Part shown: positions 2,908 to 29,136 of the stretch, one piece after another
How positions within the stretch are numbered: the stretch's first letter is position 1
Layout: every line of letters begins with the position of its first letter
Virus record (IMG/VR): IMGVR_UViG_3300048691_000086
Coordinates: 1-29,136 of that record
Reading direction: 5' to 3' (one strand)
Origin: a virus
Length of the DNA: 29,136 nucleotides
Notes under the pieces: generated by a model
The model's database searches: none
What the model was told of the DNA's origin: nothing
Seen by the model: only the letters and a program-made list of their open reading frames with translations
Program-made: the position numbers and the translations under genes

Positions 2908-3231
2908 ATGAGTGATGACTACAGATATCCAAGGAACTTCTTGGAGTGGATTAAGTTATTACCCAAAGCAGATGCAGGAGATAGTGAAGCTATGTTCTCA
3001 CTAGCACTAATGAGCGAATCCGTTGATCAAGCTATTCATTGGATTGAGAAATCAGCTGTACTTAAACACTTACCTGCAATCAGGTATTTAATAAATCACT
3101 ATACAGACTTTGATTTTAAAGACACTGCTAAAGCAGATTATTGGATTAAATTAAGACAACAAGAGGAGAGTAAACATGTTGTATGTATTAAGCTTAAACA
3201 AAGTTCAAAAGTCATAAAGGAAAATATATGA
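2908..3231 (+). CDS. Divergent Sel1-like protein with a run-on C-terminus
   Basis: 107 residues, strong SD (AAAAAGGAG). The core holds degenerate Sel1/TPR-type helical pairs: EAMFSLALMSESVDQAIHWI at about 28-47, then a second unit ending AKADYWIKL. Sel1 repeats are helical scaffolds that bind proteins. The last 22 or so residues (RQQEESKHVV onward) are read from sequence that nearly matches the non-coding leader after the stop of the next gene (see the repeats at 3139 and 3783). Loss of the old stop by an indel therefore seems likely, and the tail may be new and unfolded. The gene overlaps the next start by 4 bases. Confidence 0.6.
   Translation: MSDDYRYPRNFLEWIKLLPKADAGDSEAMFSLALMSESVDQAIHWIEKSAVLKHLPAIRYLINHYTDFDFKDTAKADYWIKLRQQEESKHVVCIKLKQSSKVIKENI
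3139..3180 (+). repeat. Direct repeat copy A (gene end plus ribosome binding site)
   Basis: Near-copy of 3783-3824. Shared exact blocks are AAGACAACAAG and GAGAGTAAACATGTT. In this copy two bases are missing before the first block, so the TAA that ends the gene in copy B is out of frame and translation runs on. The ATG at 3176 now opens only a 13-codon frame and looks like the stub of a lost gene start. Confidence 0.75.
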
Positions 3232-3800
3232 ACTATATATACGACTTACCTAGAGTACTAATGAATGCAATTAAACTAGGGTATGACCCAGCTATTAAAG
3301 ACGCTTGGGAAGAGTTTGAGGCTGATGATATATTTGGTGCAATTGAACACTATAACGATATGTGTAAATCAGACAAACCTTCACCAAATGCGTTACAAGC
3401 GCTAATTAGATTAGCTTTTTTGGGACGTAAGCGACCTATTGAATATGTTGCTAAATTGGCTGCCGATGGAAGTACTGAAGCTTTAACCGCAATTAGTACC
3501 CTTGCTGAGCAAGAGGACAGTAATGCTCTATGGTACTTAGGGCATATATACCGTCAAGGTGCGGGAGTAGAGCAGAACATTGAGAAAGGTATGCAATATC
3601 TATGTAAGGCGTTTAACTTAAATAAAGTAAATGTACTAGATTGGTTTGAGGAATGTCTTCTAGAAGGGGACTCTGAAATTGAAGCCTGCCTCTCTACTTT
3701 GGCATCAGAACATAATATGGAAGCTCAGTATATGTTAGGTAAATACTACCGTAAAAAAGCTATTGAAGTTCATTCAGAACGCTATTGGGAAAAACTGTAA
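3228..3800 (+). CDS. Sel1-repeat-like protein
   Basis: 190 residues, SD AAAGGA. Recognisable Sel1 signature at about 105-130 (ALWYLGHIYRQGAGVEQN), with the A-x-x-x-L-G-x-x-Y-x-x-G-x-G-V pattern, followed by weaker units ending EAQYMLGKYYRKKAIEV. The N-terminal 65 residues are helical and acidic. It is the second of several Sel1-like genes in a row (2908-5692). No signal peptide or membrane segment, so probably cytoplasmic. The partner is unknown. Confidence 0.75.
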   Translation: MNYIYDLPRVLMNAIKLGYDPAIKDAWEEFEADDIFGAIEHYNDMCKSDKPSPNALQALIRLAFLGRKRPIEYVAKLAADGSTEALTAISTLAEQEDSNALWYLGHIYRQGAGVEQNIEKGMQYLCKAFNLNKVNVLDWFEECLLEGDSEIEACLSTLASEHNMEAQYMLGKYYRKKAIEVHSERYWEKL

Positions 3801-3824
3801 GACAACAAGGAGAGTAAACATGTT
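3783..3824 (+). repeat. Direct repeat copy B (gene end plus ribosome binding site)
   Basis: Counterpart of 3139-3180. It covers the final codons and TAA of one gene, the SD (AAGGAGAG) and the ATG of the next. This copy keeps the intact stop and functional start and is therefore likely closer to the ancestral arrangement. Confidence 0.75.
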
Positions 3825-4095
3825 CTTTAGAAAACAACGCTATGGTAAGTTTCAATCAATCTATGAATTAGCCACACACTTTAAAGGTAAGAACCCTCAA
3901 GTATGTAAAACCTATGGAGGTGTGATTGTTAATGGTGAATTCTTTGAAACCAAGCTATCAAGCTTAGAAGTAAGGCTATGTATCCAATGCTTAAGTAACC
4001 TGAAGTACTCAGCACAGCTTAATGGCACTAGGGTTGAGTATAAGCAGGGTGTATTCACTGTGTACTACGAATCCAGTAAAGTATTAGGAGGTTAG
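3820..4095 (+). CDS. Hypothetical basic protein
   Basis: 91 residues from the ATG with SD AAGGAGAG nine or so bases upstream. An earlier in-frame ATG at 3763 lies deep in the preceding gene and is not used here. The N-terminus is strongly basic (MFFRKQRYGKF), and the body looks mixed alpha/beta with a strand-rich end (TRVEYKQGVFTVYYES). A nucleic-acid contact is possible from charge alone. No family recognised. Confidence 0.55.
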   Translation: MFFRKQRYGKFQSIYELATHFKGKNPQVCKTYGGVIVNGEFFETKLSSLEVRLCIQCLSNLKYSAQLNGTRVEYKQGVFTVYYESSKVLGG

Positions 4096-4122
4096 TATGT
4101 TGAAAAGTAGAGAGGAATCAAA

Positions 4123-4626
4123 ATGACAACGTTTACAGAACTTAAAGCACTTCCATTTGTATCTGACCCAGATAGTCAATATGAACGAGCCATGGCATTC
4201 TATAACCTAGATAACTCTATTGAAGCCATGAAAGCATGTTTATCTTGGATCAGAAAGGCAGCTAAACAAGAGCATATTGCTGCGCAAGCCTTCTTAGGGG
4301 CTTCCTATTACTTCGGTAGTAACACCTTAACTAAGGACGTTAAACAAGCCTTTAAATACGCTAACAAGGCTGCTCTTGAGGGTGATGCAGGTAGTCTTTT
4401 TATATTAGGGCTTTGCTTCTATCACAATCAAGCAGATGAGCATGATGCCACTAAAGCTATTGCATGTTTAGGACAAGCTGCATCTCAAGGATTTAAGTTA
4501 GCTAAATCAGAGCTGCTACGTATACAGATGTTAGGTGAGATGGCAAAAGAAACTTTAAAAGCTAATAGTGCTCCATCTTATGGAGCAGAACTGCCTTACA
4601 TGTACGGAGATACCCATGGTAAATAA
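4123..4626 (+). CDS. Sel1-repeat protein
   Basis: 167 residues, SD AGAGAGGA. About three consecutive Sel1-type units: around 20-55 (YERAMAFYN to WIRKAAKQEHIAA), 56-90 (QAFLGASYYFGSN to ANKAALEGDAG) and 91-130 (SLFILGLCFYHNQ to LGQAASQGF). These have the usual alternation of small and aromatic residues. The C-terminal 35 residues are unstructured in appearance. The last 11 bases overlap the next Sel1-like gene. Probable cytoplasmic protein-protein interaction scaffold. Confidence 0.8.
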   Translation: MTTFTELKALPFVSDPDSQYERAMAFYNLDNSIEAMKACLSWIRKAAKQEHIAAQAFLGASYYFGSNTLTKDVKQAFKYANKAALEGDAGSLFILGLCFYHNQADEHDATKAIACLGQAASQGFKLAKSELLRIQMLGEMAKETLKANSAPSYGAELPYMYGDTHGK

Positions 4627-5038
4627 CAAAGGACTTTCCCATAAACCTATGGAAGAGGCATATGACAACTATATAGAAGCTGTGTCCAATCTTGCAAACC
4701 AATACAGTAAACAGGGTACTGGTGAGACTAGCTTTAAAGCTGTAGAGATTCTAACTAGAGCATCTAAGTTAGGTAACCCTAAGCTATTAAGAATGTTAGG
4801 ACTTCTGTTGGTATACAGAGTATCTGTCCGTAACTATAAACGAGGTGTGAAATATTTAACTGAGGCAGCATACCTAGGAGATGTAGAAGCTCAGAAAGAC
4901 TTAGGGGAAATCTACAGCTATGCACAAGGGTTTCCCTCTAAGAGTACCATGCGTAAAGCTCTCTATTGGTTTACACAAGCAGCTGACCAAGGTTGTAAGT
5001 ACTCTATCTCACAGGTAGATAAAATCTTAGGAGGATAA
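4616..5038 (+). CDS. Sel1-repeat protein
   Basis: 140 residues from the ATG that follows GGAG and overlaps the previous gene. An upstream in-frame ATG at 4568 has no SD and would lengthen the overlap. Two clear units: GVKYLTEAAYLGDVEAQKDL, then GEIYSYAQGF to ALYWFTQAADQG near the C-terminus. The N-terminal half is helical and contains a more degenerate unit. It forms a tandem pair with the preceding gene. Confidence 0.75.
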   Translation: MVNNKGLSHKPMEEAYDNYIEAVSNLANQYSKQGTGETSFKAVEILTRASKLGNPKLLRMLGLLLVYRVSVRNYKRGVKYLTEAAYLGDVEAQKDLGEIYSYAQGFPSKSTMRKALYWFTQAADQGCKYSISQVDKILGG

Positions 5039-7838: not shown

Positions 7839-8184
7839 TGTTTCCTGTTTATGTAGATTCTTCAGTGTTAATGCTGAAGGTAAGACATCACTAGTTACAC
7901 TAAATGATCCCTCTAAATTAACCTATGAAGTGTGCGTTGCTACGTCCACTGATAATGGATACCATGTACCCATTGACTGGGTAATAGAACAAAAACAGCT
8001 TGGTTACACAGTGATGGCAGAGCCTGACATTTATTACGAAGATTTCTACGATATAGACTACGCAGCCTATGCTTCTATCTCTAGAGAAGAGTTACTTGTC
8101 CATATCAAAGAATACGTGGAAGCTACTTACGTCAAACCTTATGAGTTACATATACCTAAGAGAAAATGGGGAGATACACCATGA
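7813..8184 (+). CDS. Tandem-paralogue family protein, copy 3
   Basis: Up to 123 residues. Two starts are possible, 7813 and 7825, and neither has a strong SD; the second has GTGAG nearby. Family core HVPIDWVIEQKQLGYTVMAE, then an acidic tyrosine-rich insert (YYEDFYDIDYAAY) and the ending TYVKPYELHI. The acidic insert is unique to this copy. The stop overlaps the next gene (ATGA). Unknown function. Confidence 0.6.
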   Translation: MSLNMQKIDVSCLCRFFSVNAEGKTSLVTLNDPSKLTYEVCVATSTDNGYHVPIDWVIEQKQLGYTVMAEPDIYYEDFYDIDYAAYASISREELLVHIKEYVEATYVKPYELHIPKRKWGDTP

Positions 8185-8609
8185 ACATTGAAGAACAAAC
8201 ATCACTAGAGCAACTCACAGAGTTAGCTAATCAAGGTGTAGCACAGGCTCAATATAACTTAGCTGTCTATTACCTAGAAGGTCTTGAGGGTACACCTCAA
8301 GATACCTCTAAGAGTGTTGAGTGGCTTACTAAAGCTGCTAATAATGACTTACCTCAAGCCTGTATAGCCTTAGGTGCAATGAACCTCTTTGGGTTACATG
8401 GACATACGGTAGATGTACCTACCGCTATTACTTGGCTTAGTAAGGTAGCTCACTTAGGTAACGTAGATTCCATGAACAATCTAGGATATATCTACAGCAC
8501 TGGATTTGAGGGTGTAGATAAGAACGTAGAGCTTGCTATCTACTGGTATACCCAAGCAGTTAATAAAGGCTCTGTACATGCCAAGGAAGCCCTTAAAGGA
8601 TTACTATGA
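8181..8609 (+). CDS. Sel1-repeat protein (three clear repeats)
   Basis: 142 residues from the ATG with SD GGGGAG, overlapping the previous stop. One of the clearest Sel1 proteins here: about 18-53 (VAQAQYNLAVYYLEGLEG to WLTKAANNDLPQ), 54-91 (ACIALGAMNLFGLHG to WLSKVAHLGN) and 92-130 (SMNNLGYIYSTGFEG to WYTQAVNKGS). Three units of about 36 residues would form a short curved helical solenoid. No signal peptide. The three repeats make up nearly the whole protein, so it is likely an adaptor or competitor of protein-protein binding. Confidence 0.88.
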   Translation: MNIEEQTSLEQLTELANQGVAQAQYNLAVYYLEGLEGTPQDTSKSVEWLTKAANNDLPQACIALGAMNLFGLHGHTVDVPTAITWLSKVAHLGNVDSMNNLGYIYSTGFEGVDKNVELAIYWYTQAVNKGSVHAKEALKGLL

Positions 8610-15665: not shown

Positions 15666-16367
15666 ATGAGCATACTACATGAAGCACATGATCTAATCAA
15701 TGGACAACGAGCCAAGGATTACGGATCACCTGATATAAACTTTGCACACATTGCTGCTATATGGTCAGGTGTACTAACACCAATCATTAGCCGTAACATC
15801 ACCTCAGTTGAGGTTGCCTTATGTATGCAGGGAGTTAAGATGGCTAGATTAGCCAAGAGTCCCGACCACAGGGACAGTGCAGTAGATAACTGTGGGTATG
15901 CAGGTATTATTGAAAAGCTAGTATCAAGCCATACAGAAGCTCAATGTAATTTAGACGTAGTGCCTTGTCATGTGGATAAAGAGCAGAATGAGTCTTCGGC
16001 TATAGAGTGGTTGCAAAACTCCGCTGCCCGAGGTGGTGTACATGCGCAATTTTATTTAGGCAGTTTGTACGAAAAAGGACAAATCGTAGTTAAAGACAAA
16101 ACTAAAGCGTTCCAGTTATACGAGAAAGCTGCCAAACAAGGTCATGGATATGCACAATTTAAGTTAGGTTATATGTACCACAAAGGCAAAGGCGTAGAAA
16201 AGAACGAAAGCACAGCGGTAGCGTGGTTTCAAAAAGCTGCTGACCAAGGACACGCAGAGGCGCAACTTAAATTAAAAGCATTAGGATCACTCTTGGCTAA
16301 CAAAACCGTGTCTCTATACAAGAATGCCTCAGTAGGTCAAACTGTATTTGGTTGTGCTGAAACATAA
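15666..16367 (+). CDS. DUF6378 domain fused to Sel1 repeats
   Basis: 233 residues, SD AAAAGGAG. Residues 1-85 match the phage DUF6378 domain (QRAKDYGSPDINFAHIAAIW, then VKMARLAKSPDHRDSAVDNC), of unknown activity. After a linker, residues about 108-200 are Sel1 repeats with near-textbook bacterial sequence (FYLGSLYEKGQ, LYEKAAKQGHGYAQFKLGYM, GKGVEKNESTAVAWFQKAAD). The repeat part uses codons such as GCG and CGA more freely than its neighbours and is less decayed than other Sel1 genes here, which suggests recent gain from a bacterial genome. Domain order and the single open frame are clear; the function is not. Confidence 0.82.
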   Translation: MSILHEAHDLINGQRAKDYGSPDINFAHIAAIWSGVLTPIISRNITSVEVALCMQGVKMARLAKSPDHRDSAVDNCGYAGIIEKLVSSHTEAQCNLDVVPCHVDKEQNESSAIEWLQNSAARGGVHAQFYLGSLYEKGQIVVKDKTKAFQLYEKAAKQGHGYAQFKLGYMYHKGKGVEKNESTAVAWFQKAADQGHAEAQLKLKALGSLLANKTVSLYKNASVGQTVFGCAET

Positions 16368-23025: not shown

Positions 23026-25141
23026 GGACTTATGTACCATCTTATGTAATAAAACACAGAACACAGAGACCTCATTCTTTAAAGCTGAGATAGCCTACTT
23101 CCTAGGTAAGATGGCTGCCTGTATGAGGGTCAAGGTATCCACAGAAGACCGTGGTGATATACCAGTAAACATCTATGCACTTGGACTGGCAGTTTCTGGG
23201 GCAGGAAAAGGTTTTTCTATCAACATCATGGAAGATCAACTCTTAGGTAAATTTAAACAAGAGTTCATGGAGAATACATTCCCTACTGTGGCTATGGGAA
23301 GTATTAATGATATAGCTGAGACACGCTCTATCAAGAATAGCTCTAACCAACAAGATGAATTAGAGCTCCTCTTAAAAGACTACAAGAATACTGGGGCATA
23401 TCCATTTACCTTTGACAGTGGTACAGCTCCTGCCGTTAAACAGTTACGCAATAAGCTATTAATGGCTGGGTGTGGTTCTATCAACCTACAGATTGATGAG
23501 ATAGCCTCTAACCTACTTAATGTAGTTGATGTACTAAATCTATTCTTAGAGTTATATGATCAAGGTAAAGCCAAGCAGAAGATTACCAAGAACACTATTG
23601 AAAGTGTGCGTACTGAAGAGTTAGACGGAAGTACACCAGCTAATATGCTCCTCTTTGGTACACAATCAAAGTTACTTGATGGTGGGCAGATTGAAGACAT
23701 GTTCTTTAGTTTCTTGGATACTGGATATGCTCGTAGATGCATCTTTGGGTTAATGGGTGCTGATAAGAAGGCGTACGCTACCTTAACTCCTGAAGAAACC
23801 TATGACCGTCTCATCTGTAAAGAAAATGATGAATTGGTTAATAAGTGGTCAGACCACTTCTATACACTGGCTGCCCTGACTAACTACGGTAAGAAGATAT
23901 CCTTACCTAGGGAAACTGCTATTGAACTAATCAAGTATAAGTGTGAGTGTGAGCTCTTAGCTGAGTCATTACCTGAACATGCTGAGATTAAGAAAGCTGA
24001 GATATCCCATAGATATTTCAAGGCACTTAAGTTAGCAGGGGCATATGCCTTTATTGATGGTACAGAGGTCATTACAAGCACTCAGTTAGCTCAGGCTATC
24101 TTACTAGTAGAAGAGAGTGGTGCAGCCTTCCAAGGTATCTTAAACAGAGATAAACCCTATGTTAAGTTAGCTAAGTTCCTAGCAGGTGAAAAGACTGAAG
24201 TAACTCATGCAGATTTAACAGAGGCACTTCCATTCTATAAGACAGGTAATGTATTTAGAAGTGAACTTATGTCCTTGGCTATTGCTTGGGGATATAAGAA
24301 TAACGTCATCATTAAGAAGTCTTTCACCGATGGTATTGAGTTTTTCACGGGTGAGAAGTTAGAGGCTACTTCACTGGAGCATGTTAAGTTATCTTATAGT
24401 AACCACATGGCTTCTGACTATGAACCTACTGTAGCACCATTCTCTGCACTCCATACGTTAACTCAATCAGCTAATCTACACTGGTGTAACCATGCATTTA
24501 GAGGTAACCATAGGAGTGAGAGTAATGTCATTACAGGGTTCAACTTATTAGTCTTGGATTGTGATGGAGGTACTTCACTGAACACATGTCATGAGCTACT
24601 TAAAGACTATGTCTTTATGACCCATGAAACTAAGAGAAGTACTCCTGAACTAAATAGGTATAGGTTAGTGATACCTATTAACTATGCCCTCAATCTTCAC
24701 TCCAATGAGTATAAGGAAGTACTGACAGCAGTCATGGATTACTTACCCATACAAGGCTTAGACAGTGCCTCTAGGGAACGTTCTCATAAGTGGGAGACCT
24801 GTGCTACAGGTAATCACTATTACAACCTAGAAGGTAAGGTATTTGATATCCTGCCATTCATTCCTGCTACCAGTAAGAACATAGAGCATAAGAATGTCCT
24901 AGCTAAGTATGCTTCCATGGATTCATTGGATAGGTGGTTCATACAACAAGGTGTTGAAGGGAATAGATCCAATAACATGATTAAGTATGCCCTAGTTCTA
25001 TTTGATACAGGTATTGATTATGACACTGCTAAGGAGAAGATTAAACAACTAAACAGTAAGACAGCAAGCCCATTAACCCAGCAGGAGTTAGACACTACTG
25101 TGTTAGCTACCCTATTTAAAAAATACAAGGACACTATATGA
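22997..25141 (+). CDS. Primase/ATPase of the N4 type
   Basis: 714 residues from the ATG with SD AAAAGGA. An in-frame ATG at 22952 lies inside the nuclease gene. The N-terminal ATPase-like part has a P-loop variant (AVSGAGKGFS, about 65-74) and a Walker B-like NLQIDEIAS near 163-171. The part from about 480 to 590 resembles archaeo-eukaryotic primases: LVLDCDGG near 518-525 with a D-x-D pair, then NRYRLVIPI. The last 75 residues look like a PriCT-type helical domain (NNMIKYALVLFDTG). It would prime and perhaps unwind DNA at the fork. The N4 replication region has a counterpart. The stop overlaps the split ATPase gene. Confidence 0.78.
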   Translation: MNQQHHPVIKDLCTILCNKTQNTETSFFKAEIAYFLGKMAACMRVKVSTEDRGDIPVNIYALGLAVSGAGKGFSINIMEDQLLGKFKQEFMENTFPTVAMGSINDIAETRSIKNSSNQQDELELLLKDYKNTGAYPFTFDSGTAPAVKQLRNKLLMAGCGSINLQIDEIASNLLNVVDVLNLFLELYDQGKAKQKITKNTIESVRTEELDGSTPANMLLFGTQSKLLDGGQIEDMFFSFLDTGYARRCIFGLMGADKKAYATLTPEETYDRLICKENDELVNKWSDHFYTLAALTNYGKKISLPRETAIELIKYKCECELLAESLPEHAEIKKAEISHRYFKALKLAGAYAFIDGTEVITSTQLAQAILLVEESGAAFQGILNRDKPYVKLAKFLAGEKTEVTHADLTEALPFYKTGNVFRSELMSLAIAWGYKNNVIIKKSFTDGIEFFTGEKLEATSLEHVKLSYSNHMASDYEPTVAPFSALHTLTQSANLHWCNHAFRGNHRSESNVITGFNLLVLDCDGGTSLNTCHELLKDYVFMTHETKRSTPELNRYRLVIPINYALNLHSNEYKEVLTAVMDYLPIQGLDSASRERSHKWETCATGNHYYNLEGKVFDILPFIPATSKNIEHKNVLAKYASMDSLDRWFIQQGVEGNRSNNMIKYALVLFDTGIDYDTAKEKIKQLNSKTASPLTQQELDTTVLATLFKKYKDTI

Positions 25142-25284
25142 GTGAAAGTTCAGAAGATAAAGATGAGTTCTCAGGATTAGACCAGTTAGTACTTATTACT
25201 GGTGTTTCAGGTGAAGGTAAGTCAAGATCTCTATATAACATACGGGATCAGCATGACTGGATATACCTGAATGTTGAAGCGGGT
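25138..25284 (+). CDS. RecA-like ATPase, exon 1 (residues 1-49)
   Basis: Starts at the ATG overlapping the primase stop (ATGA). The exon encodes the N-terminus and Walker A, GVSGEGKS (22-29), and ends in LNVEAG. Unspliced, the frame stops one codon later (TTG TAA), so no functional protein would be made. Joined to exon 2 (26235-26897) it gives a 269-residue RecA/Sak4-like ATPase; reading across the join is EAG-KRLPF, a segment I associate with phage ATPases of this type. The N4 replication block has an ATPase at this place. Probably acts in recombination or replication. Confidence 0.85.
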
Positions 25285-25334
25285 TTGTAAGATAGCCCCT
25301 CTACATAGCAATATGTAGCAGATAACTTATTTAA

Positions 25335-25363
25335 TTGCTGGAACACCCTTTTTATGTTATAAT
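25335..25363 (+). promoter_or_regulatory. Intron-internal sigma70-type promoter
   Basis: TTGCTG (25335-25340), a 17-base spacer, then TATAAT (25358-25363) with a TG extension (TGtTATAAT). A transcript would begin near 25370, just before the leader of the endonuclease gene, and would lack P1, P2 and the P element, so it could not splice. The -10 match is perfect, although the genome is AT-rich and the -35 has only three matches. Confidence 0.5.
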
Positions 25364-25375
25364 AAGTTTCGATAA

Positions 25376-25383
25376 CTTATAGG
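25376..25383 (+). promoter_or_regulatory. Helix that can hide the endonuclease ribosome binding site
   Basis: CTTATAGG here is perfectly complementary to CCTATAAG at 26030-26037, an 8-bp stem that closes the loop holding the endonuclease gene as an extension of P5. The SD of that gene (AGGA, 25381-25384) is largely inside the stem. In the folded precursor RNA the gene should therefore be translated poorly, much as known for T4 intron endonucleases. Confidence 0.55.
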
Positions 25384-25393
25384 ACATAGACAG

Positions 25394-26026
25394 ATGAAAA
25401 TATGTAAACAGTGTAAAAGTAAAATCAACAGTTCTAACATTTATCATAACTTTATTTATTGCTCTAGAAGTTGTGCCACAACTGCACAAAGGGGCGGATT
25501 AACTAAAGCTATGATAGAAGAGGAAATTGTTGCTTACGTTATTAATAAGGGAAAGTACTCTACTTTAAGTGAAATACTAAAAGGAATAGGTAGGTCAAAT
25601 AAGACTGTATCTAAATTTGGTATTTCAATAAAAAAGATACAAGAATCTCTTGGGATTGTTAAGTCAAAATCCCATTTTGAAGCCTCTATCTATTCTGTAT
25701 TAACTAAAGAATTTGATAATGTTATATGTGAAGTTACTTCAGAAGATTTGGTATCCCCAAAAGGATACCCCTTAAGAATTGATTTCTATATACCAGAGTT
25801 AAATTTATATATAGAAGCGGACGGCAATCAGCATACTGACCCTAATAACCCTTGGTATAATGAATACTTTGTAGAGTGTGACCAATTAAAAACAGCCTAC
25901 TGTAATAAGATCGGTACACTGATTCGTATTCCCTATACTAAAAATGCAACCACTGAATATGTATTAAAACATCTGAGAGCTTGTAGGGCTACAACGCAAC
26001 TGGTAACAGTAATCGTGAATGCTTAA
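25394..26026 (+). CDS. Intron-encoded homing endonuclease, VSR/PD-(D/E)XK-like
   Basis: 210 residues, inside the P5 loop of the intron. N-terminus: a zinc finger (C4, C7, then CSRSC with C23 and C27). Middle (about 40-95): helix-turn-helix-like helices, probably DNA-binding. C-terminus (about 100-195): YPLRIDFYIPELNLYIEADG, then NQH, CDQLKTAYCNKIG and LIRIPY, a layout that resembles VSR/EDxHD or DUF559-type nucleases with D, E, D and H as candidate metal ligands. It lacks LAGLIDADG, GIY-YIG and HNH motifs. It would cut intronless copies of the ATPase gene and drive intron homing. Base use is more A-rich than the neighbours. SD AGGA, spacing nine. Confidence 0.75.
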   Translation: MKICKQCKSKINSSNIYHNFIYCSRSCATTAQRGGLTKAMIEEEIVAYVINKGKYSTLSEILKGIGRSNKTVSKFGISIKKIQESLGIVKSKSHFEASIYSVLTKEFDNVICEVTSEDLVSPKGYPLRIDFYIPELNLYIEADGNQHTDPNNPWYNEYFVECDQLKTAYCNKIGTLIRIPYTKNATTEYVLKHLRACRATTQLVTVIVNA

Positions 26027-26234
26027 AAACCTATAAGATTGGGCAATCAGCAGGCAAGACTCAATATAACTATATTGAGTAAGCTTCAACGACTATTCCT
26101 TCGGGAAGTACATCTAAGTAGATGGAAATGGTAAGTACCTCATTAGAGGTAAAGATATAGTCTGGTCTGTATAGAAATATATAGCAGCTTGTATAAAGCG
26201 GGAAGCATCTAACGAATGCTTTTGAACAATAACG

Positions 26235-26897
26235 AAAAGACTCCCCTTCAGTAACGCCTTTACCTCTCGTAATATAACTGACCCTGACATGGTTACCGCA
26301 GCTCTTACATGGGCTACCTTACCTGAGAATAAAGGAGAGTTTAAAGGCATAATCATAGACTCCCTTACATTCCTCATGGATCTCTATGAAAGTACACATA
26401 TCGCATTCATAGATAAGAAGAGCTCCGATGGTATGGCTGCATGGTCTAACTATGGACAGTTCTTTAAAACCATGTTGCAACGGTTAGTCCCAGCTATTGA
26501 TGCACCTGTAATCTTTACAGCCCATGTACTGCCTATACTTAATGCAGCTACTGAAGAGTTTACTGTACGTGTACCTATTAAAGGTGCATTAAAGAACGTA
26601 GGCGTTGAGAGTTTCTTTTCTACTGTAGTAGCAGCTAAAAGGGTTAAAGTATCAATCCTTGAGCCTTATATGCAGAAGCAAATGGATTTAGGGAACTGTA
26701 TTTTAAATATAACTGATGAAGAAAGAGAGGACACCTATAAGTATGTGTTTCAAACAAGACCTACCAAGGACACATTCAAAGAGAAAATGAGAACACCCGA
26801 TACATTATTCACTAGACCCTATACATACATGGACAACGATACACAGCTATTAATTGACATGTTAGACAACTTCCACAAACAAAATAAAAATAAGTAA
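26235..26897 (+). CDS. RecA-like ATPase, exon 2 (residues 50-269)
   Basis: Continues exon 1 (25138-25284) after removal of the intron. Begins KRLPFSNAF. Walker B is GIIIDSLTF, and IFTAHVLPI looks like the sensor strand of RecA-fold proteins. The C-terminus is charged and ends in KQNKNK. The first ATG within this exon is at 26289; using it would lose the 18 residues from KRLPF on and the Walker A motif, so it is not an independent start. The 269-residue total suits small phage RecA-like (Sak4/UvsX-minimal) ATPases. Confidence 0.85.
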   Translation, partial: KRLPFSNAFTSRNITDPDMVTAALTWATLPENKGEFKGIIIDSLTFLMDLYESTHIAFIDKKSSDGMAAWSNYGQFFKTMLQRLVPAIDAPVIFTAHVLPILNAATEEFTVRVPIKGALKNVGVESFFSTVVAAKRVKVSILEPYMQKQMDLGNCILNITDEEREDTYKYVFQTRPTKDTFKEKMRTPDTLFTRPYTYMDNDTQLLIDMLDNFHKQNKNK

Positions 26898-27627: not shown

Positions 27628-28016
27628 CCAGCTGGGTAATATCTCTACCTCTACACATTATGATGAAGAATAAGAAGCATTATCTTAATCTTAATGTGTA
27701 TACTACAACCCATAGATTCACTCGTAACAAGGTGAAGATTAAGTTTACAGAGGAAGTGTTACCCTTGATAGCACATCTCCCTAAACTAGCCAAGATGTCT
27801 GTAACCTATGTTATATATCCTCGTACTAATGCTGCTAGCGACACTAATAACATATGTAGCATAGTAGATAAGTTCTTCTTGGATACACTAGTAGCGGGTG
27901 GTGTGATAGTTGATGACAATCACACGATTGTCGTTAGCACCACTAATCTATATGGCTCTAAGGATAAAGACAATCCTAGATGTGAAGCCATAATAACTGA
28001 CTTAGGTAACCAATGA
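27624..28016 (+). CDS. RusA-like Holliday junction resolvase
   Basis: 130 residues, matching the usual RusA length (about 120). Key pattern: an acidic residue and Asn in SDTNNICSIVDKFFLDTL (D73, N75, D82, D87), then GGVIVDDNHTIV with D97 and D98. These fit the metal-binding aspartates of RusA, although the common D-x-D-N is here D-T-N-N. Family role: symmetric cutting of four-way junctions made during recombination or before packaging. Coupled to SSB upstream and dUTPase downstream by overlapping ATGA. Confidence 0.75.
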   Translation: MTSWVISLPLHIMMKNKKHYLNLNVYTTTHRFTRNKVKIKFTEEVLPLIAHLPKLAKMSVTYVIYPRTNAASDTNNICSIVDKFFLDTLVAGGVIVDDNHTIVVSTTNLYGSKDKDNPRCEAIITDLGNQ

Positions 28017-28493: not shown

Positions 28494-29136
28494 TTACGTC
28501 AATACATTCACAAGAGGGTTTAAGTTAATAGCTCTTATTGCTTGTCCCCATCCTAAGCTATAGCCTAGATGTCCTGATAATAACTTACTTATAAAGTTAT
28601 CTGTTACAGGTGATCCTAATGCATCAGGGACTGGTAACACCATCTTAAGTAGTACACCTGCTGGGTTGTTACGTATCATAGATAAAGCAATCTTAGTACT
28701 CCTAATCTTAAAAGTAGGAAACCACACTAATCCAATGGATTCTAGATAATGTTGATCTCTACCTGATAGTCTAGAAGTATCTACAAACTCTTCACTAGCT
28801 AATCCTGCTGCTACCTTAGGATCAGTCTTCTGAGTAAGTAAGTAATCGTAGTACACACTCTTAGCTAAGAAGTCTCCGAAGTCTACAGACTTCTTAAGTA
28901 ATTGATACAAGGCTGTATCTTTACCTACCAATATCTGATTAGCTATGTTCTGTAAGTTACTCGGTAACACCCCAATAGCTTTATTTACCATCTGATCAAA
29001 CTTACCATCAATGACATGTATGTCATCACGAGAAACTGCACCATCACTAATAGAAGAGAACTCCCCTGCTTCAATCATTGGATATATAGATAGGTGTGTG
29101 AAGGTATCTTCAATAGCTTGGATTCTAGCTGCAATA
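28494..29136 (-). CDS. C-terminal part of a large virion protein, probably virion RNA polymerase
   Basis: Open on the - strand from the right edge of the window to a TAA at 28494; 213 residues are visible and the true start lies outside. The region LTQKTDPKVAAGLASEEFVD, then YLESIGLVWFPTFKIRSTKI and RNNPAGVLL, resembles C-terminal segments of large internal or injected proteins of podoviruses. In N4 the giant virion RNA polymerase gene (gp50) lies on the leftward strand near the SSB gene, so this is my best call. None of the polymerase core motifs falls within the window. Confidence 0.6.
   Translation of the reverse strand, partial: IAARIQAIEDTFTHLSIYPMIEAGEFSSISDGAVSRDDIHVIDGKFDQMVNKAIGVLPSNLQNIANQILVGKDTALYQLLKKSVDFGDFLAKSVYYDYLLTQKTDPKVAAGLASEEFVDTSRLSGRDQHYLESIGLVWFPTFKIRSTKIALSMIRNNPAGVLLKMVLPVPDALGSPVTDNFISKLLSGHLGYSLGWGQAIRAINLNPLVNVLT

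Follow-up and report, generated by a model that had tools for sequence, protein, structure and literature searches.

The type IA introns of phage T4, td and sunY, carry endonuclease open reading frames (ORFs) that are under separate expression control, and the intron of I-Bth0305I, the prototype EDxHD homing endonuclease, has recA as its host gene in Bacillus phage 0305phi8-36. The EDxHD homing endonuclease family has been described (PMC3943268), and both ORFs overlapping the intron core and the invasion of introns by endonucleases are established ideas (PMC3984707). Among N4-like phages, a group I intron lies in the thymidylate synthase gene of pVa5 (PMC5746245) and another has been suggested for JA1 (PMC3670811). 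Here we analyse the IMG/VR virus record IMGVR_UViG_3300048691_000086, a 29-kb viral contig whose 29,136 nucleotides we call the window. Judged from the sequence, positions 25285-26234 are very probably a mobile group I intron of composite make-up that interrupts the Sak4-like ATPase gene of an N4-like phage and carries a Vsr-like endonuclease cassette. Introns in N4-like phages are known already, and the most useful feature here is a pair of alleles, as a nearly identical contig, L007, has the intron free of the endonuclease.

The interrupted gene spans 25138-26897 and consists of two exons:

25138-25284, + strand: 5' exon of the Sak4-like (RecA-fold) ATPase gene, 49 codons, with the Walker A motif GVSGEGKS, ending in ...NVEAG, last base U; homologous to 463 phage records.
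26235-26897, + strand: 3' exon of the Sak4-like ATPase gene, from KRLPF to the stop codon, carrying Walker B; weak match to AAA_24, below the cut-off.

Joining 25284 to 26235 gives a single open frame of 269 codons, and the resulting 269-aa protein is matched by the 463 phage records, 462 of which cover at least 80 % of it in one place. When junction offsets from -8 to +8 were tried, EAGKRLPF was restored only by offsets 0 and -1, and offset 0 alone places a U before the intron and a G at its end. Eleven intronless homologues, picked across hosts from the matching records, were aligned and all eleven read E(A/S)GK(R/K)LPF across the join, collinear and gap-free. The insertion follows residue 49, between Walker A (residues 22-29) and Walker B (GIIIDS, about residues 87-92). 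The gene is non-functional unless spliced because unspliced RNA meets a UAA two codons inside the intron. An initial annotation of this locus had placed the junctions after 25284 and before 26235 so as to restore EAG-KRLPF, had predicted that intronless homologues would match across the join, and had described an insertion between Walker A and Walker B that leaves the gene dead unless the intron splices; the offset scan, the homologues and the early stop codon bear all of this out. Its name for the gene was RecA-like ATPase; Sak4-like is the better name according to the annotation that RefSeq records of the homologues carry. No near-identical intronless allele of this phage was found among the viral contigs. 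A degenerate pattern across the join led to one contig, which was rejected as its flanking sequence is G+C-rich and does not resemble the Sak4-like gene.

The Rfam group I intron model RF00028 (gathering threshold 50 bits) matches the window once, at 25950-26184 with 58 bits (E 1.8e-12), and this search found no further group I intron in the record. On the endonuclease-free L007 allele the same model scores 87.1 bits (E 1.8e-21) and the upstream strands of P1 to P5 are threaded, P1 included. Rfam mis-threads the 5' half of the intron in the window because a 633-bp ORF separates the two P5 strands; we set its P3-P5 threading aside, since most of P3 is unpaired in it and pairing with the upstream strands is better. 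Rfam matches can in this way misplace the 5' half of endonuclease-bearing introns by hundreds of bases. Separately, in Staphylococcus phage CF5 (L126:1111-2243) four group I intron matches follow one another within some 1.1 kb. The anatomy of the intron is as follows:

25285-26234, + strand: group I intron, 950 nt, type IA by P7.1/P7.2, terminal G, from RF00028 and the paired elements.
25281-25284/25295-25298, + strand: P1, exon GGGU with intron guide GCCC, U25284-G25295 wobble; read from the sequence and also present in the Rfam alignment of the L007 allele.
25301-25318, + strand: P2 hairpin CUACAUA-GCAA-UAUGUAG, -5.7 kcal/mol, z -5.45.
25325-25331/26130-26136, + strand: P3, ACUUAUU with GGUAAGU.
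25335-25341/26047-26053, + strand: P4, located by position, Rfam threading of L007 and covariation.
25346-25348/26041-26043, + strand: P5, located by position, Rfam threading of L007 and covariation.
25976-26053, + strand: rest of the P5 extension (P5a, P5b, P5c, then the 3' strands of P5 and P4), by covariation.
25980-25987/26030-26037, + strand: P5a, by covariation.
About 25994-25996/26014-26016, + strand: P5b, by covariation.
25999-26002/26007-26010, + strand: P5c, by covariation.
26059-26080, + strand: P6-region hairpin ACTCAATATA/TATATTGAGT, a perfect 10-nt inverted repeat.
26091-26095/26158-26162, + strand: P7, located by position.
26096-26107, + strand: P7.1, hairpin between the P7 5' strand and the P3 3' strand.
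26111-26124, + strand: P7.2, hairpin between the P7 5' strand and the P3 3' strand.
26137-26150, + strand: P8, located by position.

Compensatory changes among 48 distinct sequences fall at 16 of the 26 pairs of the P4-P5 domain and support P5a, P5b and P5c. The P7.1 and P7.2 hairpins support placement in subgroup IA. Some features fit less well: P10 appears weak by eye, and the subgroup call comes from P7.1/P7.2 only. The exon-end U, the U-G pair of P1 and the terminal G that had been proposed are found at U25284, which ends the 5' exon, its partner G25295, and G26234, and the suggested covariance-model check is positive for both alleles. The description as a group IA intron stands as regards the RF00028 match and the P7.1/P7.2 anatomy; it had left out the composite nature of the intron, with a homing endonuclease in its P5 domain, and did not mention the 633-bp ORF that fills two thirds of it. 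The anatomy suggests that guanosine attack at U25284 and ligation to A26235 would allow the ribozyme to excise itself from the pre-mRNA, restoring EAG-KRLPF.

The ORF lies between the strands of the P5 domain:

25394-26026, + strand: Vsr-like/EDxHD-like homing endonuclease ORF, 210 aa, 633 bp, from phrog_559, phrog_9084 and structural matches.

Its product matches the phage homing-endonuclease families phrog_559 (E 1e-16) and phrog_9084 (E 2e-10), and relatives are known from Bacillus phage Moonbeam, inside an intron of the terminase gene, and from Lactobacillus phage Semele, between parts of the terminase. An alignment of 56 relatives shows no variation at D130, F131, E141, G144 and H147 and nearly none at E96, D163 and K166; E96, D130, H147 and D163, picked out by this conservation, are a candidate E-D-H-D active site. 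An AlphaFold model built from the 56-sequence alignment reaches a mean predicted local distance difference test score (pLDDT) of 90-97 over residues 91-180. The model is poor over the first 90 residues, where CxxC pairs close to the N terminus may mark a zinc finger. A single-sequence model (pLDDT 45) was not used. In VIA-align comparisons over about 100 residues, the top structural matches of the model include Vsr (Z 9.7) and I-Bth0305I (3r3p, Z 9.5), which points to a Vsr-like catalytic fold. Other searches weigh against this assignment: Foldseek alone gives no match at E 0.001 or better, with AbaSI and Vsr near the top, and by sequence no Pfam family is matched and NCBIfam yields nothing meaningful. 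Sequence searches of solved structures with the ORF or a small alignment returned nothing, and the 56-sequence profile found AbaSI alone (E 0.12). An exact 11-mer, GGCAATCAGCA, occurs both in the active-site codons (25823-25833) and in the P5/P4 3' strand (26042-26052), possibly by chance.

It is possible, if rather unlikely, that the enzyme belongs to a different homing lineage, with a nuclease of PD-(D/E)XK type and not of the EDxHD type. The conserved D130, E141 and K166 resemble a PD-(D/E)XK motif, and AbaSI/PvuRts1I-like and TnsA folds are also among the structural matches. However, the invariant H147 and near-invariant E96 and D163 fit the E-D-H-D set, Vsr and I-Bth0305I are among the top matches, and all these folds are related to one another. 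By analogy with other phage introns, a Vsr-like endonuclease at this locus would cleave the conserved EAGKRLPF site wherever it is free of the intron and so drive homing.

The same ORF is carried by three contigs from other samples, and the fourth, L007, lacks exactly one segment:

25351-25975, + strand: endonuclease cassette of 625 bp, inserted in the strand between P5 and P5a; absent from L007, in which 25224-25350 is joined to 25976 onward.

Cassette aside, L007 and the ORF-bearing contig G002 are about 99.99 % identical over some 29 kb, and the window shows zero substitutions relative to the four other contigs in the shared parts of intron and exons. The L007 junction, CCCTT^AGAGC, sits in an exact 23-mer spanning the empty site, AATTGCTGGAACACCCTTAGAGC, that is present in 56 viral contigs, namely that of L007 and 55 others. 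We compared the spacing to the other P4 strand in the 96 contigs that have the first 18 bases of this 23-mer: it is 88 nt, as in L007, in 38, and 82-92 nt in most others. Nothing interrupts the insertion point in the introns of three other phages either, namely Serratia phage 2050HW, crAss-like phage cr118_1 and Bacillus phage BpSp. Because the junction 23-mer is common to 55 other viral contigs, the spacing is standard, the stems covary and introns of unrelated viruses are continuous, the endonuclease-free intron is very probably the older form and the endonuclease a cassette insertion. The cassette would have joined a pre-existing intron in the strand between P5 and P5a. The last 16 endonuclease codons are ribozyme sequence that is also in the endonuclease-free allele, including the P5a 5' strand.

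It is improbable that L007 shows, in place of an older form of the intron, a misassembly or one that has recently lost the endonuclease by deletion. This contig is the only one that shows the endonuclease-free form, and it ends 127 nt past the junction, as an assembly graph might; the end may be one at k=127, where both alleles co-occurred. Yet the junction lies within the exact 23-mer of 55 other viral contigs and the P5 domain, once restored, is of the standard 88-nt length with covarying stems, and a random deletion or misjoin is not expected to restore all of these. L007 may instead have lost the cassette precisely, through recombination with an intron copy free of the endonuclease: the data fit such a loss in L007 as well as a gain in the other contigs, and this counts against reading L007 itself as the uninvaded intron. 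It is very unlikely that the intron has ceased to splice and left a pseudogene in a phage living without this ATPase: the endonuclease ORF does overlap the P5 domain and splicing is a prediction, but all core pairings are intact, both exon frames are open, the parts shared with the four other contigs have no substitutions, and the gene is conserved in 463 records.

The cassette seems to have brought its own leader:

25351-25390, + strand: leader hairpin holding the endonuclease ribosome-binding site AGGA (25381-25384), beginning at the first cassette base; -10.3 kcal/mol, z -3.78, its stability equalled by none of 200 shuffles.
25355-25363, + strand: extended -10 promoter-like site TGTTATAAT within the leader hairpin's 5' arm; the window has one other TGnTATAAT on this strand.

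In the read-through pre-mRNA the ribosome-binding site is predicted to be closed in the hairpin. The TGTTATAAT site could act as a promoter that gives the endonuclease a separate transcript, and a transcript starting about 7 bases past it would be without the hairpin 5' arm. Separate transcripts that escape a closed leader are known for phage T4 intron endonucleases, and an arm-less transcript may serve here in the same way. Several results speak against it: the site has a poor -35 hexamer and was not listed by a consensus promoter scan, and in predicted folds of the shorter transcript the endonuclease start codon is still paired. Expression control by a transcript free of the hairpin arm is a prediction, and not a strong one. 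A 10-mer at 25321-25330, GATAACTTAT, which overlaps the P3 5' strand, is repeated at 25371-25380 in the leader hairpin. Pairing of the leader's ATAAGTT with P3 could provide a possible link between splicing and endonuclease expression.

Two ideas on how endonucleases enter introns have been put forward, target resemblance, as proposed for I-TevII, and pre-adaptation with illegitimate recombination (PMC3984707). The alleles with and without the cassette offer a real empty site within an intron, so that these ideas can be tested on natural sequence. When the exon target was compared with the intron insertion point, the best local score was 16, which 61 % of random 60-mers from the window matched; the target-resemblance idea is unsupported here because the empty intron site is no closer to the exon target than random phage sequence. 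Other introns of this family, in three sets of viral contigs (L138, L152, L164 and L165; L190, L204 and L221; L194 and L201), hold unrelated PD-(D/E)XK-like ORFs in their P5 extension, and some of these ORFs apparently end in ribozyme sequence. A fuller reading, which we give an even chance, is that in this near-isogenic pair (about 99.99 % over 29 kb) an EDxHD-like cassette has just invaded the older intron at the P5/P5a strand, bringing a self-closing leader and an internal promoter and borrowing its last 16 codons, and that the P5 extension is a recurrent entry point for endonucleases. If true, the unrelated ORFs of the three other contig sets would reflect that recurrence.

The assignment of the phage as N4-like (Schitoviridae), also made in the initial annotation, agrees with the rest of the window. 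The Sak4-like gene is flanked by genes for a primase (phrog_2135) and for a single-strand binding protein (phrog_743), which is the Schitoviridae gene order. The C-terminal 193 residues of the virion RNA polymerase, the only part that falls inside the window (28494-29075, minus strand), match the end of phrog_2206 (E 8e-66). PHROG matches to a polymerase, the primase, the single-strand binding protein, RusA and dUTPase also support it. At 27669/27670, close to where the RusA-like resolvase gene begins, the window is without 15 bp, ATAAGAAGCAGGAAG, that are present in all four near-identical relatives, an in-frame difference of 5 codons. The left end (1219-2220) encodes an RNA ligase (PF09414) that has a PHA02142 OB-fold domain. 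Sel1 repeats are matched by at least five predicted proteins (3228-5035, 8166-8606, 15666-16364), and several neighbours look similar by eye; such proteins look unusual for an N4-like phage and may form an expanded family.

The intron extends a known pattern to another site. Our search of a limited literature collection found no paper on an intron at this Sak4-like site, nor on 'group I intron' together with 'Schitoviridae'. The group I introns of pVa5 and, as suggested, of JA1, likewise in N4-like phages, differ in having other host genes and HNH endonucleases. Escherichia phage vB_EcoP_PW8 (PQ362703) is also N4-like and has a group I intron with an endonuclease in its Sak4-like gene; that intron lies about 60 codons further on (after NTQKA) and encodes an HNH enzyme, and the PW8 record annotates no intron in the stretch examined. 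The Litunavirus-type Pseudomonas phages Pa_WF01 and phPLST, N4-like as well, have a similar intron core, but their intron is in the RNA polymerase gene with the endonuclease after the core, not in P5. The T4 td and sunY endonucleases belong to other families and lie in other loops than here, while sharing the separate expression control proposed for this locus. The I-Bth0305I intron is likewise a group I intron in a RecA-fold recombination gene, with a Vsr-like nuclease domain (Z 9.5 to 3r3p), although the sequence similarity between the two enzymes is too weak for sequence search to detect. The present system differs from it in that the host gene is Sak4-like and not RecA, and in that the endonuclease is placed in the P5 domain.

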